Below, piece after piece: positions 17,987-46,968 of a stretch of 64,000 nucleotides of DNA (within the stretch, counting starts at the first letter, position 1; each line of letters starts with the position of its first letter). A model generated the notes under the pieces. That model was not told where the DNA came from, did no database searches, and saw only the letters and a list, made by a program, of their open reading frames with translations. Source of the DNA: Pseudomonas rhizophila (GTDB taxonomy: Bacteria; Pseudomonadota; Gammaproteobacteria; Pseudomonadales; Pseudomonadaceae); NCBI RefSeq assembly GCF_003033885.1, contig NZ_CP024081.1:80232-144231 (forward strand), in the 5' to 3' direction. A program made the position numbers and the translations under genes.

Positions 17987-18646
17987 ATGCTCAAGCTTTA
18001 TGGTTTTTCCGTCAGCAATTATTACAACATGGTTAAGCTGGCGTTGCTGGAAAAGGGCCTGCCCTTCGAAGAGGTGCCGTTCTACGGCGCTCAGACCCCC
18101 GATGTGCTGGCCATCAGTCCGCGGGGCAAGGTGCCGGTGCTCAAGACCGAGCAAGGGTTTATCAACGAAACCAGTGTGATCCTCGAATACATCGAGCAAA
18201 CCCAGTCGGGTAAAGCCCTGCTGCCCAGTGATCCGTTCGAACGTGCCCAGGTACTGGCTTTGTGTCGGGAAATCGAGTTGTACATCGAGCTGCCGGGACG
18301 GGCTTGCTACACCGAGGCGTTTTTCGGCATATCGGTACCCGAAGCCATCAAGGAAAAGACCAAGGCCGAATTGCTGCTGGGGTTCGCCTCGCTCGGCCGT
18401 CACGGCAAATTCTCGCCCTACGTGGCGGGTGACAGTCTGAGCCTGGCCGATCTGTATTTCCTCTACAGCGTATCGCTGGCGTGCCAGGTGGGCCGGAAAG
18501 TGTTCGATATCGACTTGCTGGCGGATATGCCGGCGGCCAAGGGGCTGATGGAGCGGCTGGAGCAGAACCCGAATGTGCAGCGGATTGCGGCCGACAGGGA
18601 GGCAGAGATGCCAGCGTTTTTGGCGATGATTGCTGCCAAGAAGTGA
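17987..18646 (+). CDS. Glutathione S-transferase family protein
   Basis: The protein has 219 residues. The N-terminal thioredoxin-like domain begins MLKLYGFSVSNYYNMVKLALLEKGLPFEEVPF, with the glutathione-binding motif RGKVPVLKTEQGFINETSVILEYIEQ; an all-helical C-terminal domain follows (SLADLYFLYSVSLACQVG). The usual catalytic Ser/Tyr region reads FSVSNYYN. Substrate unknown; a detoxification role in the cytoplasm is likely. It is flanked by REPINs. Confidence 0.9.
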   Translation: MLKLYGFSVSNYYNMVKLALLEKGLPFEEVPFYGAQTPDVLAISPRGKVPVLKTEQGFINETSVILEYIEQTQSGKALLPSDPFERAQVLALCREIELYIELPGRACYTEAFFGISVPEAIKEKTKAELLLGFASLGRHGKFSPYVAGDSLSLADLYFLYSVSLACQVGRKVFDIDLLADMPAAKGLMERLEQNPNVQRIAADREAEMPAFLAMIAAKK

Positions 18647-18670
18647 GTTTTGTGGTGTTTTGAAGTGAGT

Positions 18671-18765
18671 CATCGCGAGCAGGCTCGCTCCCACATTTGA
18701 TCTCCATGTGTTCACACATGTGCGTTCACTGAAGATCCACTGTGGGAGCGAGCCTGCTCGCGATG
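18671..18765. repeat. REPIN, GTGGGAGCGAGCCTGCTCG class
   Basis: CATCGCGAGCAGGCTCGCTC at the left end is the reverse complement of GAGCGAGCCTGCTCGCGATG at the right end. It separates the convergent GST and argH genes. Confidence 0.9.
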
Positions 18766-18775
18766 CTTTCGGCTT

Positions 18776-20170
18776 TTAACGGCTGGCGAGCATCGCCTGG
18801 CCGCGCACCACGGCAGCCTTCACCTGGGCAGGCGCTGTGCCGCCGATGTGGTCGCGGGCATTGACCGAACCTTCCAGAGTCAGCACGGCAAACACGTCCT
18901 GCTCGATCTGGTCACTGAACTTGCGCAACTCGTCCAGGCTCATCTCCGCCAGGTCCTTGCCGTTGTCCACGCCGTACTTCACGGCATGGCCGACGATTTC
19001 GTGGCAATCACGAAACGGCAGGCCACGGCGTACGAGGTAATCAGCGAGGTCGGTGGCGGTGGAGAAGCCGCGCAAGGCCGCTTCGCGCATCACTGCATGC
19101 TTGGGCTTGATCGCCGGGATCATGTCGGCAAAGGCCCGCAGCGAATCACGCAGCGTATCGGCGGCATCGAACAGCGGTTCCTTGTCTTCCTGGTTGTCCT
19201 TGTTGTAGGCCAGCGGCTGGCCCTTCATCAGGGTCAGCAGGCCCATCAGCGCACCGAACACCCGACCACTCTTGCCGCGTACCAGCTCCGGCACGTCGGG
19301 GTTTTTCTTTTGCGGCATGATCGAGCTGCCGGTGCAGAAGCGATCCGGCAGGTCAATGAACTGGAATTGCGCGCTGGTCCACAGCACCAGTTCTTCGGAG
19401 AAGCGCGACAGATGCATCATCGCAATGCTCGCGGCGGCGCAGAATTCGATGGCGAAATCGCGGTCCGAAACGTTATCCAGCGAGTTGCCGCCCACGGCGT
19501 CGAAACCCAGCAACTGTGCGGTGTATTCACGATCGATCGGGTACGTGGTGCCGGCCAGCGCGGCGCTGCCCAGGGGCATGCGGTTGGTGCGCTTGCGGCA
19601 GTCCACCAGGCGCTCGTAGTCGCGGCTGAGCATTTCGAACCAGGCCAGCATGTGATGCCCAAACGTTACAGGTTGAGCGGTTTGCAGGTGCGTGAAGCCC
19701 GGCATGATGCTCTCGGCCTCGCGCTCGGCCTGCTCCAGCAAGCCTTTTTGCAGACGGGTGATCTCGCCCAGGATCAGGTCAATCTCATCGCGCAGCCACA
19801 GGCGAATGTCGGTGGCCACCTGGTCGTTTCGGCTGCGGCCGGTGTGCAGCTTCTTGCCGGTCACGCCGATGCGATCGGTCAGGCGCGCTTCGATGTTCAT
19901 GTGCACGTCTTCGAGATCGACGCGCCAGTCGAACTGGCCGGCCTCGATTTCAGCCTGGATGGTTTTCAGGCCATCGATGATGCTGTCGCGCTCGGCATCG
20001 GTCAGTACGCCGACCTTGGCCAGCATGGTGGCGTGGGCGATCGAGCCCATGATGTCGTGGCGATACAGGCGCTGGTCGAAGTTGACGGAGGCGGTGAAGC
20101 GGGCGACGAAGGCGTCGACGGGTTCACTGAAGCGGCCGCCCCAGGACTGATTGGTCTTGTCAGTGCTCAT
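18776..20170 (-). CDS. argH: Argininosuccinate lyase
   Basis: The protein has 464 residues. It begins [25 protein letters not shown] and carries the fumarase/aspartase-superfamily signature [15 protein letters not shown] near residue 280, with catalytic TGRSRNDQ and [13 protein letters not shown] motifs. It cleaves argininosuccinate into arginine and fumarate, the last step of arginine synthesis. In P. aeruginosa argH is divergent from algZ-algR; here it is divergent from an algZ remnant and algR. Confidence 0.97.
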
Positions 20171-20354
20171 GAATTCGCTCGTGATCGGCTGTGGAAAAAG
20201 TAGCGGTTAAAGGCTGCGGCGGATGATAGCAGGGTTGCCGGGACTGGCGCTGGCACTGGTCGGCAGGTTTTTTGCGCACAACCCGAGCATTTAATGGGTT
20301 TTTTGCACAACGATATTTTTCGATTGAGCAATATCGGCGCGGCAACCGTCTACA

Positions 20355-20633
20355 GTGGACTGTAGGACTTTTACTTTTTCATCCACGGAGCATTGGACGA
20401 ATAGAAGAGGGGGGCTCGTATTGGTCAGATGGAGTGTTAACAATTCCTACGACGGCGCCGTGCGACAACAGGCCTCAAGCATCGATTGGCAGGCGCGGGT
20501 AAAGATAGGTAACCGCCTCGCGGCACTTTTTGGCCCTCGAACGAGTCTTAGCGTGGATCGCGGTGACGGATGTCACTTCCCCTGTCTACGCTATCCTTGT
20601 GCGAGACTCACGCAGGAATCCAGCGCAATATGA
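20355..20633 (+). pseudogene. algZ: Remnant of the AlgZ/FimS sensor kinase (C-terminal scrap)
   Basis: A 92-codon frame ends in TGA at 20631-20633, overlapping the algR ATG as ATGA. From about 20508 its translation reads GNRLAALFGPRTSLSVDRGD followed by GCHFPCLRYPCARL, which looks like the end of a LytS-type histidine kinase ATPase domain (N-x-RL-x-x-L-F/YG, then a last strand). In P. aeruginosa the ~358-residue sensor gene algZ lies directly before algR. Here only this tail is recognisable; the phosphorylated His region and membrane domain are absent. The part before 20508 resembles nothing I know and may be non-coding. The rest of the 459-base argH-algR gap shows an AT-rich stretch near 20270-20340 and no other gene. 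Confidence 0.55.
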
Positions 20634-21376
20634 ATGTCCTGATCGTTGATGACGAACCACTGGCCCGTGAGCGCCTGAGCCGAATGGTTGGCGAACTCGA
20701 GGGTTACAGTGTCCTGGAGCCGAGCGCCACCAATGGCGAAGAGGCGTTGGCCCTTATTGATAGCCACAAGCCGGATATCGTGCTGCTCGACATTCGCATG
20801 CCTGGCCTGGACGGTTTGCAGGTCGCGGCGAAGTTGTGCGAGCGTGAGTCACCGCCCGCGGTGGTGTTCTGCACCACTCGGGACGACTTCCCGCCGGAGG
20901 TGCTGCAGGCCGGCGCCGTGGGCTATCTGATCAAGCCGGTCACTGCCGAGGCGCTGGTCGAGGCCTTGCGCAAGGCCGAGCGGCCCAACCGCGTGCAACT
21001 GGCGGCGTTGACCCGTCCGGCCGCCGAAAGCGGCAGCGGCCCGCGCAGCCACATCAGTGCGCGCACTCGCAAAGGCATTGAACTGATCCCATTGAATCAG
21101 GTGGTCTACTTTATCGCCGACCATAAATACGTGACCTTGCGTCACGAGAGCGGCGAGGTGTTGCTGGACGAACCACTCAAGGCTCTTGAAGACGAGTTCG
21201 GTGAACGCTTCGTGCGCATCCACCGCAACGCCTTGGTGGCTCGCGAGCGTATCGAGCGTTTGCAGCGCACACCCCTTGGGCATTTCCAGTTGTTTCTCAA
21301 AGGCCTCAATGGCGACGCGCTGATTGTCAGCCGGCGGCACGTGGCCGGCGTGCGGAAGATGATGCAACAGCTTTAG
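20630..21376 (+). CDS. algR: LytTR-type response regulator AlgR
   Basis: The protein has 248 residues, the same length as P. aeruginosa AlgR. The start MNVLIVDDEPLARERLSRM is used; 20 upstream codons are excluded. The receiver domain has D7, D8, phospho-acceptor D54 (VLLDIRMPGLDG) and K105 region (YLIKPVTAEALVEAL). The C-terminal LytTR DNA-binding domain follows (ARTRKGIELIPLNQVVYFIADHKYV, FVRIHRNALVARERIERL). AlgR controls alginate, type IV pili, rhamnolipid and biofilm genes in P. aeruginosa. Its sensor gene next door is decayed, so phosphorylation would need another donor. Confidence 0.96.
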   Translation: MNVLIVDDEPLARERLSRMVGELEGYSVLEPSATNGEEALALIDSHKPDIVLLDIRMPGLDGLQVAAKLCERESPPAVVFCTTRDDFPPEVLQAGAVGYLIKPVTAEALVEALRKAERPNRVQLAALTRPAAESGSGPRSHISARTRKGIELIPLNQVVYFIADHKYVTLRHESGEVLLDEPLKALEDEFGERFVRIHRNALVARERIERLQRTPLGHFQLFLKGLNGDALIVSRRHVAGVRKMMQQL

Positions 21377-21523
21377 CTTGAGGTTCCAAGGCGTCCAAGC
21401 CGTTTAGCGCGTTCCATTTCCAGGACATTGACGGCCAGGGAGGCCTTGGGGTCGTGATTCAAGTCAAAGCGAATTTGACTGAGCTGTTATTATCCGCCGT
21501 ATCTTTTAAGTACGGATTGATCC

Positions 21524-22465
21524 ATGTCCCCTCGCGAGATCCGCATCGCCACCCGTAAAAGCGCCTTGGCCCTCTGGCAGGCCGAATACGTCAAAGCCCG
21601 TTTGGAAGAGGCCCATCCCGGCCTGATCGTGACGCTGGTGCCCATGGTCAGTCGCGGCGACAAGCTGCTGGACTCGCCGCTGTCGAAAATCGGCGGCAAG
21701 GGCCTGTTCGTCAAGGAGCTGGAAACCGCGCTGCTGGACAACGAAGCCGATATCGCCGTGCACTCGATGAAAGATGTGCCCATGGACTTTCCGGAAGGCC
21801 TGGGCCTGTTTTGCATCTGCGAGCGAGAAGATCCACGCGATGCGTTCGTTTCCAACACGTTTGCAAGCCTCGACGCCCTGCCCGCCGGGAGTGTGGTCGG
21901 CACCTCCAGCCTGCGTCGCCAGGCGCAGTTGCTGACCCGCCGCCCAGACCTGCAAATCCGCTTTCTGCGGGGCAACGTCAATACCCGCCTGGCCAAACTC
22001 GATGCCGGTGAGTACGACGCAATTATCCTTGCCGCCGCCGGCCTGATCCGCCTCGGTTTTGAAGATCGCATCACGTCGGCCATCAGCGTCGATGACAGCC
22101 TGCCGGCCGGTGGGCAGGGGGCGGTGGGTATCGAATGTCGCAGCGCCGACAGCGAGATCCATGCCCTGTTGGCACCGCTGCATCACGACGACACCGCCAC
22201 CCGGGTCTTCGCCGAGCGCGCCCTCAACAAACACCTCAATGGCGGTTGCCAGGTGCCGATCGCCTGTTACGCCGTACTCGAAGGCGAGCAGGTCTGGTTG
22301 CGCGGTCTGGTGGGTGATCCGAACGGTGGCCGACTGCTCAGTGCCGAGGCCCGTGCGCCGCGCCGCGATGCCGAAGCGCTGGGTGTCCGGGTAGCCGAAG
22401 ACCTGCTCAGCCAGGGTGCCGACGACATTCTCAAGAAGGTCTACGGCGAGGCGGGCCACGCGTGA
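21524..22465 (+). CDS. hemC: Porphobilinogen deaminase (hydroxymethylbilane synthase)
   Basis: The protein has 313 residues. Signature segments: [36 protein letters not shown] (catalytic Asp region), [11 protein letters not shown] and the dipyrromethane-attachment cysteine in [16 protein letters not shown]. It polymerises four porphobilinogens into hydroxymethylbilane. Its stop overlaps the hemD start by 4 bases, opening the hemC-hemDX-hemY operon. Confidence 0.97.
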
Positions 22466-24375
22466 CGGGCTGGCGGCTGCTGCTGACCCGGCCGGTCGAC
22501 GAGTCGTCGGCCCTGGCGGCTGTCCTGGCCGAGGCCGGGATCTACAGCAGCAGCCTGCCGTTGCTGGATATCGAGCCGGTCCCCATGTCCGACGCCATGG
22601 GGGAGACTTTTCAACGGCTGGACCAGTACTGTGCCGTGATTGTGGTGAGCAAGCCCGCCGCACGTTTGTGTGTGGAGCTGCTGCGCCAATATTGGCCCCA
22701 GCCGCCAGACCAGCCATGGTTCAGCGTGGGGGCGGCGACCGGGCAGATCCTTATCGATGCCGGCCTCACTGTGTTTTATCCCGACCACGGCGATGACAGC
22801 GAAGCCTTGCTGGAGCATCTGGTGTTACGCCAGGCTATCACCCGACCCAATCCCAAGGTTTTGATTGTGCGTGGCGAGGGCGGGCGCGGCTTGCTGGCGG
22901 AGCGCTTGCGCGAGCAAGGTGCTAGTGTCGATTATCTGGAACTGTACCGGCGCAGCCTGCCGCATTACCGAGAAGGTGAGTTGGCGGCAAGGGTCAAAGC
23001 GGAACGCTTGAACGCGCTGGTGGTCAGCAGTGGGCAGAGCTTCGAGCATCTGCAGCGGTTGGCTGGCGATGAGTGGCCCGCGCTGGCGCGGTTACCGTTG
23101 TTCGTTCCAAGCCCAAGGGTTGCCGAGATGGCCCGTGCCGCCGGGGCCCTGACAGTTGTGGATTGCCGTGGCGCCAGTGCTGCGGCTTTGCTGGCGGCGT
23201 TACGGGATCAGTCCGTGCCGTTTTCTAATGCAAAGGATGGATACGTGAGCGAAACAGCCTTGCCAAAAGATCAAGACCAACCCGCGATCGATACGCCGGT
23301 TGAAACCCCTGCTCCGAAGGCGCCGCGTCGCGGCAACGGGCTGGCCATTGTCGCGTTGTTGTTGGGAGCCGCCGGCGTGGCCGTTGGTGGTTGGGGCGTG
23401 TGGCAGGTGCGTCATCTGCAAGCCAATAACCAGCAGCAGGCCAGTCAGGTTCAGGCGCTCAATGATCAGGCCCAGACCCTCAAGCTCAATGAGCAACGCC
23501 TGAGTGAGCGTCTGGCTCAATTGCCTGCGGCGCAAGAGCTGGAAGAGCGTCGGCGTCAGGTCGCCCAGTTGCAGGGTGATCAACAACGACTGAGCCAGCG
23601 CCTGGAAACCGTGCTCGGTGCCAGCCGCAAGGACTGGCGCCTGGCCGAAGCCGAACATCTGCTGCGCCTGGCCAGCCTGCGTCTTTCCGCCCTGCAGGAC
23701 ATCAGCAGTGCCCAGGCCCTGGTCCAGGGTGCTGACGAAATCCTGCGCGAGCAAAACGACCCTGGCTCATTCGCCGCTCGCGAGCAACTGGCCAAGACCC
23801 TTGCTGCGTTGCGCAGTACCGAGCAGCCGGATCGTACCGGGCTGTTCCTGCAGTTGGGGGCCTTGCGTGACCAGGTGCTGCAACTCACGGAGCTGGCACC
23901 CGAATACAAGGATCGTGGTGAGTCGTTGCTGGGCTTGACCGCCGATGGCGATGGCGCCAGCCGCTGGGCGCAGTGGTGGGACCAGATATCGCGCTATATC
24001 CGTATCGATTTCAACGCGGATGAGAATGTCCGTCCGCTCTTGGCCGGGCAGAGTCTGGTGCAGGTGCGCCTGGCCTTGAGCCTGGCCCTGGAGCAGGCGC
24101 AATGGGCCGCTCTCAACGGCCAGGCCCCGGTGTACACCCAAGCGCTGGCTCAAGCGCATGATGTGCTCAAGAACAACTTCAACCAGGACAACCCGCAAAG
24201 CAAAATCATGCTTGAGCGCGTGGCCGAGCTGGCCAGGCAGCCGGTGACGGTTGCAACCCCGGATCTGACAGGGACCCTGAGCAGCGTTCAGGCCTATCTG
24301 GAGCGCCGCAACCTGAACGCCGAAGAGTCGGTCAAGCCGCTGGCCAAACCTGATGAGCAGGAGGCCACGCCATGA
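22462..24375 (+). CDS. hemD: Fused uroporphyrinogen-III synthase HemD / membrane protein HemX
   Basis: The protein has 637 residues in one open frame. Residues 1 to about 255 are HemD (starts with [49 protein letters not shown]), which closes hydroxymethylbilane to uroporphyrinogen III. Around residue 262 begins Hem[12 protein letters not shown], a proline-rich linker, a membrane helix (about 293-313), a long coiled coil ([28 protein letters not shown]) and the HemX domain. Codon 262 is GTG at 23245, with AAAGGA at 23232-23237 before it, so HemX may also be made separately. The stop overlaps hemY by 4 bases. Confidence 0.93.
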
Positions 24376-34297: not shown

Positions 34298-34387
34298 GTG
34301 GGAGCGAGCCTGCTCGCGATAGCGGTCTGTCAGCCAAGCGCATTGCTGGTTGATGCATTGCTATCGCTAGCAAGCTCGCTCCCACAG
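34298..34387. repeat. REPIN inside the envelope-protein cluster
   Basis: GTGGGAGCGAGCCTGCTCG at the left end faces AGCAAGCTCGCTCCCACAG at the right end, in the 162-base gap between the YcfL-like and LpoB-like genes. It may reduce read-through or stabilise upstream mRNA. Confidence 0.88.
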
Positions 34388-38976: not shown

Positions 38977-39064
38977 GTGGGAGCGAGCCTGCTCGCGATG
39001 ACGGTGTGTCAGCAAACAGATACATCAACTGAACTGACGCCATCGCGAGCAGGCTCGCTCCCAC
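38977..39064. repeat. REPIN, GTGGGAGCGAGCCTGCTCG class
   Basis: GTGGGAGCGAGCCTGCTCGC and its reverse complement bound an 88-base element between the convergent YaiI and elbB genes. Confidence 0.9.
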
Positions 39065-46899: not shown

Positions 46900-46968
46900 A
46901 TCGCGAGCAGGCTCGCTCCCACAAGTGACCGAGTCGCGATCGAACTGGGAGCGAGCCTGCTCGCGATG
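46900..46968. repeat. REPIN, short-centre
   Basis: TCGCGAGCAGGCTCGCTCCC faces GGGAGCGAGCCTGCTCGCGA with about 29 bases between. It lies upstream of ppx and downstream of the ABC operon. Confidence 0.88.

Follow-up and report, generated by a model that had tools for sequence, protein, structure and literature searches.

The closest described counterpart of the locus studied here is the algZ (fimS)–algR pair of Pseudomonas aeruginosa, in which the kinase gene lies directly before algR and divergent from argH. One or more algR promoters were reportedly placed within the 3′ end of algZ by Pritchett in 2015. Two sources likewise locate algR promoter activity inside the 3′ end of algZ (PMC4064291; PMC8787478), the former giving an AlgU promoter, GCACTT-N17-TCTGA, with a transcription start at −73. 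According to the same 2014 review, direct phosphotransfer from AlgZ to AlgR had not been shown, and alginate production was unaffected in an Asp54 mutant of mucoid P. aeruginosa (PMC4064291); the kinase dependence of AlgR is a standing question in that species. The FimS/AlgR pair of Pseudomonas syringae belongs to the same family and has an intact kinase (PMC2222644). For PprA, the AlgR homologue of P. putida, the review describes activation of algC and a return of mucoidy when an algR mutant carries it (PMC4064291); the putida-type loci compared below have no adjacent kinase. Orphan response regulators in general, such as VemR, which is reported to be taken up by HpaS (PMC7036368), lack a cognate kinase next to them.

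Here, a 64,000-nt stretch of the Pseudomonas rhizophila genome (the window) was analysed, in which, in contrast to P. aeruginosa, the kinase part of algZ has been deleted while pieces bearing the putative algR promoters are left. Unlike in orphan response regulators generally, remnants of the ancestral kinase gene can still be recognised here, seemingly serving as promoter DNA. An internal algR promoter is already known; what we did not find described is its persistence as the framework of a lost kinase gene, together with a matched decay of one face of AlgR. Among the titles and abstract openings listed in searches of open-licence literature, none concerned algZ loss with algR promoters retained.

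Organization of the argH–algR interval

In the window, argH and algR (ATG at 20630) are divergent and 459 nt apart, and a kinase gene is absent between them, as a preliminary description of the locus had stated. The features of the region are:

18776–20170, minus strand: argH, divergent neighbour of algR
20303–20364, plus strand: algZ remnant, island 1, internal codons around RYLSIEQYRLGERLQ (nhmmer E 8.8e-15; synonymous-site peak in intact algZ)
20347–20356, plus strand: decamer CGTCTACAGT, candidate minus-10 of a distal promoter (TCTACAGT, 20349); exact in 133/133 kinase-less loci
20405–20629, plus strand: algZ remnant, islands 2 and 3, the 3′ end (algZ positions −219 to −2; nhmmer E 8.6e-50), encoding the protein tail common to intact AlgZ
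20523–20550, plus strand: putative AlgU (sigma-22)-type promoter GCACTT-N17-TCTTA, −107 from the algR ATG (sequence; published P. aeruginosa box)
20557–20629, plus strand: predicted algR leader, 73 nt (synonymous-site conservation where algZ is intact)
20585–20592, plus strand: TCTACGCT, second candidate minus-10, of the stationary-phase sigma type (conservation across loci)
20355–20633, plus strand: 92-aa open frame, probably no gene (tail pN/pS, start-codon and Pfam checks)
20630–21376, plus strand: algR, with receiver (PF00072) and LytTR (PF04397) domains (Pfam)
20789–20791, plus strand: AlgR Asp54, the phosphoacceptor, conserved in 133/133 kinase-less loci
20873–20944, plus strand: AlgR residues 82–105 (end of beta4, alpha4, beta5, up to alpha5), relaxed in kinase-less lineages

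The preliminary description was also right that the 92-aa frame exists, that its TGA overlaps the algR ATG as ATGA and that its end resembles a LytS-type kinase. The frame ends KIGNRLAALFGPRTSLSVDRGDGCHFPCLRYPCARLTQESSAI, compared to NIGARLAALFGPRASLSVDRRDGRHFTCLRYPCARLTQESSAI in the intact AlgZ of the relative L110, and 37 of its last 43 residues are identical to the AlgZ C-terminus of that relative. With this alignment and the nhmmer match at the algR-adjacent position, the 3′ tail beside algR is, by homology, AlgZ-derived. The 3′ tail had thus been placed correctly, but the remnant starts further upstream (at approximately 20303) and the second remnant at 20303–20364, corresponding to algZ positions −410 to −348 before algR in intact relatives, had been missed.

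An Rfam scan of 18000–22500 gave no match, and the plasmid collection likewise returned none. The intergene contains a terminator-like hairpin (20349–20366), the right arm of which is different in most of the relatives listed. As a separate observation, the window carries eight copies of a REP-like element, GGGAGCGAGCCTGCTCGCGA (none in 100 shuffles), arranged in four inverted pairs at 18673–18763, 34300–34383, 38979–39062 and 46901–46966; a REP-like core lies within the argH–algR interval only in L046, L048 and L053, all kinase-less and with intervals of 529–535 nt.

Distribution of algZ

Searching the whole genome (one contig, 5.95 Mb) for the LytS-type kinase domain PF06580 yielded no match, and an intact LytS kinase elsewhere in the genome was therefore rejected; the intact AlgZ of L099 scored 86.8 bits, and the 92-aa frame gave no match. 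Loss of algZ from this genome, and widely across the lineage, had both been proposed, and the survey agrees: PF06580, which is only a proxy for AlgZ (29 of the 30 genus loci compared adjoin algR), matched in 119 of 398 genomes of the genus (111/385 of good quality) and was without a match in 279. Across the family, 81 of the 99 genomes, from 18 of the 19 genera, had a match, so algZ looks ancestral; the sole match in genus g13 (L141) neighbours a regulator that is just 29% like AlgR. The argH–algR interval measured 286–628 nt without algZ and 1157–1354 nt with it, among 196 loci with both flanks. This gap table left out L007, L141 and L148, whose regulator is approximately 30% like AlgR, ten distant family loci (AlgR identity 53–65%), and two loci in which no argH was located (L152 and L165). 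G379 (L007) and G484 (L148) each hold a second PF06580 kinase beside an AlgR-like regulator of about 30% identity.

Among the named examples, algZ is present in P. gingeri, P. batumici, P. fuscovaginae and P. cichorii, and absent from P. mediterranea, P. thivervalensis, P. koreensis and P. mandelii. Two loci with the label viridiflava (L087, L103), one with the label cichorii (L105) and one with the label tremae (L090) also have intact algZ. Labels can mislead, however: L080, likewise labelled viridiflava, is without algZ, and a kinase-less locus labelled syringae (L093) groups with the fluorescens side. In a putida-type genome, presumably P. putida NBRC 14164, argH adjoins algR, as the preliminary description had stated for that species.

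The loci compared were of several origins. Eighty named loci (62 kinase-less, 18 intact) were the best AlgR matches to the window, and this sample is therefore biased towards the kin of the window. A further 70 kinase-less loci (30 + 40), mostly of low DNA similarity, came from 74 genomes without PF06580; these genomes gave 72 AlgR positions, two of them outside the locus set, and two genomes were without a full AlgR. Another 79 located genomes lay outside the locus set. The kinase-less set of 133 comprised 78 non-putida and 55 putida-type loci, and the 47 intact loci of the genus were reduced to 44 distinct ones for algZ counts.

Loss of PilY1, the partner of FimS, was tried as a functional explanation of algZ loss. 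PilY1 was found in 115/119 AlgZ-positive and 113/279 AlgZ-negative genomes, that of the window included; the 43 genomes with a strong match (E < 1e-60) all have AlgZ, and a weaker type occurs both with and without it. Since shared ancestry was not controlled in these counts, no causal claim is drawn from them.

Retained algZ segments and synonymous constraint

The extent of the remnants was assessed with an nhmmer profile of intact same-genus algZ DNA (1095 nt), run on the 133 distinct kinase-less argH–algR intervals; a reversed-sequence control gave no matches. Mean retention in 30-nt bins, expressed as loci out of 133, was 0–1 at algZ positions −1095 to −466, 112–120 at −405 to −346, 64–76 at −225 to −106 and 122–133 at −105 to −1. 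When any overlap was counted, the first of these regions was seen in a single locus (L116), and both −405 to −346 and −105 to −1 in all 133. The first 630 nt of algZ were undetectable in 132/133 intervals. The decamer CGTCTACAGT, the first nine bases of which are the codons R-L-Q of RYLSIEQYRLGERLQ, was exact in all 133 kinase-less loci and in 44/47 intact same-genus loci. This internal island is an extra feature of the genus compared to P. aeruginosa (44/47 intact loci), the decamer being found in 0/16 intact loci of other genera. L116, L074 and L106 retain different, longer algZ pieces, with L116 (G336) having the most algZ left among the 133 (512 nt).

The retained stretches coincide with synonymous-site constraint in intact relatives. 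Among 38 of these, the last approximately 27 algZ codons showed excess synonymous conservation above the 99.9th percentile of column shuffles, and island 1 (codons −127 to −116) an excess of 0.239, lying between the 95th and 99.9th percentiles. The rise at island 2 (codons −75 to −60) was weaker and not significant, below both percentiles. The 95th percentile was also exceeded ahead of the AlgZ start, at codons −372 to −361 (excess 0.210). In 13 other-genus sequences the rise in the tail was smaller (0.16, below threshold). Across 130 loci, with the decay intermediates L074, L106 and L116 left out, retention followed synonymous excess with a Spearman coefficient of 0.61 over 33 blocks (p 1.5e-4), and the smoothed correlation of 0.55 was reached by none of 335 circular shifts. 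The rare leucine codon CTA, which accounts for 5% of the Leu codons of these genes, occupies island 1 in 44/44 intact same-genus genes, and TGTCTACGCTAT is used in 58 of 59 tails with CLRY.

Candidate algR promoters

The sequence at 20523–20550 conforms to the definition of an AlgU promoter (GAACTT-like minus-35, spacing of 16–17 nt, TCTNA minus-10) and equals the published algR box except for TCTTA in place of TCTGA, predicting a start near 20557, i.e. at −73. Its distance from the algR ATG also equals that in P. aeruginosa, and the gene for AlgU is present in the genome (323 bits). The box GCACTT-N17-TCTNA was found at −107 in all 78 non-putida kinase-less loci and, apart from L147, at −106/−107 in all of the 60 distinct intact loci that the gap table contains (59 loci). 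It is not universal, since it is missing from L147 and from ten distant family loci with algZ (L142–146, 150, 164, 166, 168 and 170; AlgR identity 53–65%). Among kinase-less loci, heterozygosity was 0.0 in the minus-35, 0.02 in the minus-10 and 0.20 in the spacer, and sequences were far more variable upstream of the box than downstream of it. The putida type differs from the window in that the minus-35 is replaced: the GCACTT box is gone from the 55 loci and GAATCT-N15/16-TCT stands in 54 of them, which may or may not be an AlgU promoter.

The octamer TCTACGCT (20585) and TCTACAGT (20349) resemble the stationary-phase minus-10 consensus. The former occurs in 120/133 kinase-less, 44/44 intact same-genus and 14/16 other-genus loci, and GATTGARC-N17..24-CGTCTAC has a single occurrence in the genome. 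A distal promoter around 20347–20356 is a guess, given that none of the 16 intact loci from other genera carries the decamer and that a sigma-70 scan of the argH–algR intergene found no pair. In putida-type loci, motifs of the leader persist despite a shifted or closed frame (CAGGAATCC in 55/55, TCTACGCT in 45/55), and the leader (20557–20629 and equivalents) may possibly have a function at the RNA level. One putida-type locus (L203, interval 440 nt) has an apparent extra insert between the promoter-like box and algR.

The 92-aa frame

The open frame beside algR is probably not a gene. A Pfam search with it gave no match, and no in-frame start occurs between the predicted −73 start site and the ATG in any of the 78 non-putida kinase-less loci, the nearest GTG of the tail frame lying at −77 in the window. 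The pN/pS of the tail was 0.61 in non-putida kinase-less loci compared to 0.22 in intact ones, and variable columns by codon position numbered 18, 15 and 23 against 8, 7 and 20, so that changes are spread more evenly across codon positions in the kinase-less loci. In 78/78 non-putida loci the frame runs free of stops over 43 codons or more; of the 55 putida-type loci, 35 have a frame that reaches the overlap after 35 or more stop-free codons, and in the other 20 it is closed within 35 codons. The ATGA overlap is present in all 133 kinase-less loci, including those with the tail frame closed early, but this is weak evidence, as algR of the window itself begins ATGAAT and ATGA follows from the first codons of algR. 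Neither purifying selection on the amino acids nor a usable start in the predicted leader was found, and a small coupling gene was rejected on the pN/pS, the missing leader start, the missing Pfam match and the putida-type frame closures.

The AlgR receiver after kinase loss

AlgR of the window has the PF00072 receiver, the PF04397 LytTR domain and Asp54, as expected of its family. None of the 133 kinase-less loci has a substitution at Asp7, Asp8, Asp54 or Lys102. In contrast, the alpha4-beta5-alpha5 face of the receiver is relaxed in kinase-less AlgR, whereas it is nearly invariant beside AlgZ. The sequence of residues 82–105 is TAHDEFALEAFQVSAVGYLVKPVR in 36 of the 47 intact loci of the genus and in 8 of the 16 from other genera, with 7 versions in each of these two sets; kinase-less loci have 33 versions on the fluorescens side (74 loci) and 34 on the putida side (55 loci). 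Thr82 is changed in 28/133 (three of these to Ser) and Tyr99 in 52/133 kinase-less loci, both being unchanged in 47/47 intact same-genus loci. The pN/pS of residues 82–110 rose from 0.073 in intact loci to 0.313 on the fluorescens side and 0.286 on the putida side, while that of the LytTR domain remained steady (0.048, 0.041 and 0.053, respectively); these values are from random samples of 40/47, 40/74 and 40/55 loci. All three members of the L127/L138/L208 group together gave 0.231 for residues 82–110. Speaking against the contrast, intact AlgR from all 16 other-genus loci gave 0.181, although the rest of the protein was similar there (LytTR 0.185).

Scored against the TAHDEFALEAFQVSAVGYLVKPVR face typical of AlgZ-bearing genomes, which is outside the formal family definition, AlgR of the window matches at 13 of 24 positions. 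Among 30 genomes, all 14 with an intact kinase scored 22–24 and all 16 kinase-less ones 21 or fewer. The highest kinase-less score (21/24) belonged to G336 (L116), which also has the most algZ left, as expected if the kinase is lost first and relaxation follows. In a comparison of independent pairs, face and kinase presence went the same way in 3/3 supported pairs, a number with which significance is unreachable (p 0.25). The AlgR structure model was mediocre (mean pLDDT 69, below 50 at 87–96) and was used only for secondary-structure limits.

Number of losses

On a tree of argH and algR from 179 loci, four changes in kinase presence were needed, two of them forced by supported branches, and a single kinase-less clade was not rejected (p-AU 0.56). 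Since the count of losses was left undecided by this tree, it was addressed with rpoB/rpoC and with argH. With rpoB/rpoC (30 chosen genomes, 7967 columns), five changes were needed, at least three of them on supported branches, and one kinase-less clade was rejected (ΔlnL 447, p-AU 9.5e-5). It was likewise rejected by argH alone (p 7e-5) and by argH with hemC (p 7.5e-5); hemC alone was borderline (p-AU 0.066). Kinase-less genomes thus do not form one clade, so algZ was either lost several times or lost and regained.

Explanations for the retained remnants

On this evidence, the scrap beside algR is what remains of algZ (fimS), and it was probably kept because algR's own promoters were written into the algZ reading frame. 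In this model, algR would be transcribed from the islands, by the AlgU promoter at 20523–20550 and a distal promoter around 20347–20356, with a possible further stationary-phase promoter around 20585–20592. AlgR would be controlled mainly by the amount made rather than by a LytS-type kinase, which fits the relaxed alpha4-beta5-alpha5 face, and would act largely independently of phosphorylation, which fits the lack of effect of the Asp54 mutation on alginate in mucoid P. aeruginosa mentioned above; Asp54 may persist for structural reasons or because phosphate is occasionally received from elsewhere. The broader proposal, which we regard as evenly poised, is that AlgR has been converted repeatedly from a kinase-gated switch to a dose-controlled regulator, the kinase being deleted around embedded promoters and the face decaying after each loss (Thr82 and Tyr99 among others), with Asp54 kept.

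That the remnants are neutral leftovers of a recent loss, their deletion pending, is extremely improbable: L074, L106 and L116 do resemble decay intermediates, but both islands persist in every one of the 133 loci, drawn from several groups, while the first 630 nt have vanished from all but one, and the islands match the synonymous constraint of intact genes. The preliminary description had instead explained the retained end by translational coupling to algR; in such a reading, the tail would still be translated as a leader peptide or coupling frame. The overlap and the long open frames are as such a role would have them, and translation could begin further upstream on RNA made from a distal promoter. 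This explanation was nevertheless not supported, and we consider it very unlikely, because the retained DNA comprises the AlgU box, the leader and an internal island, non-putida leaders offer no start (78/78), the tail has a pN/pS far above that of intact genes, and 20 putida-type loci close the frame early yet retain the leader.

The remaining alternatives concern the regulator and its history. Conservation of Asp54, Asp7, Asp8 and Lys102 could mean that AlgR continues to receive phosphate, from a different kinase or from a small phosphodonor, and hence is not kinase-independent. We find this doubtful, since the changes at Thr82 and Tyr99 and the wider relaxation affect the face that generally transmits phosphorylation in receivers. 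As for history, a single ancient loss, followed by re-acquisition of algZ in some lineages or by spread of the kinase-less allele through recombination, would agree with the argH and algR tree and with hemC alone. The left edge of island 1 near −405 to −415 in many of the loci listed is also as expected from one event, as is the rpoB/rpoC tree in so far as kinase-less G146/G161, the putida genomes (G217, G276) and G130/G015 branch before the mixed clade. A single loss is nonetheless unlikely in view of its rejection by rpoB/rpoC, argH and argH with hemC, and of the placement of L116 among intact genomes (support 88, not starred). Several losses appear more plausible than loss and regain, because the leftovers in L116, L074 and L106 differ from one another.

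Implications

If the remnants are retained as proposed, promoters inside a coding gene can constrain which deletions survive, and the silhouette of a dead gene is then regulatory DNA; in annotation, such scraps would be labelled promoter remnants and not small open reading frames. With 279 of 398 genomes without a PF06580 match, and with AlgR, its Asp54 and promoter-like remnants kept in the kinase-less loci compared, the question of kinase dependence becomes testable in this genus with no need to work on a pathogen. If repeated conversion of AlgR is true, the genus would amount to a natural experiment, run several times over, on which features a receiver domain still requires after the loss of its kinase.
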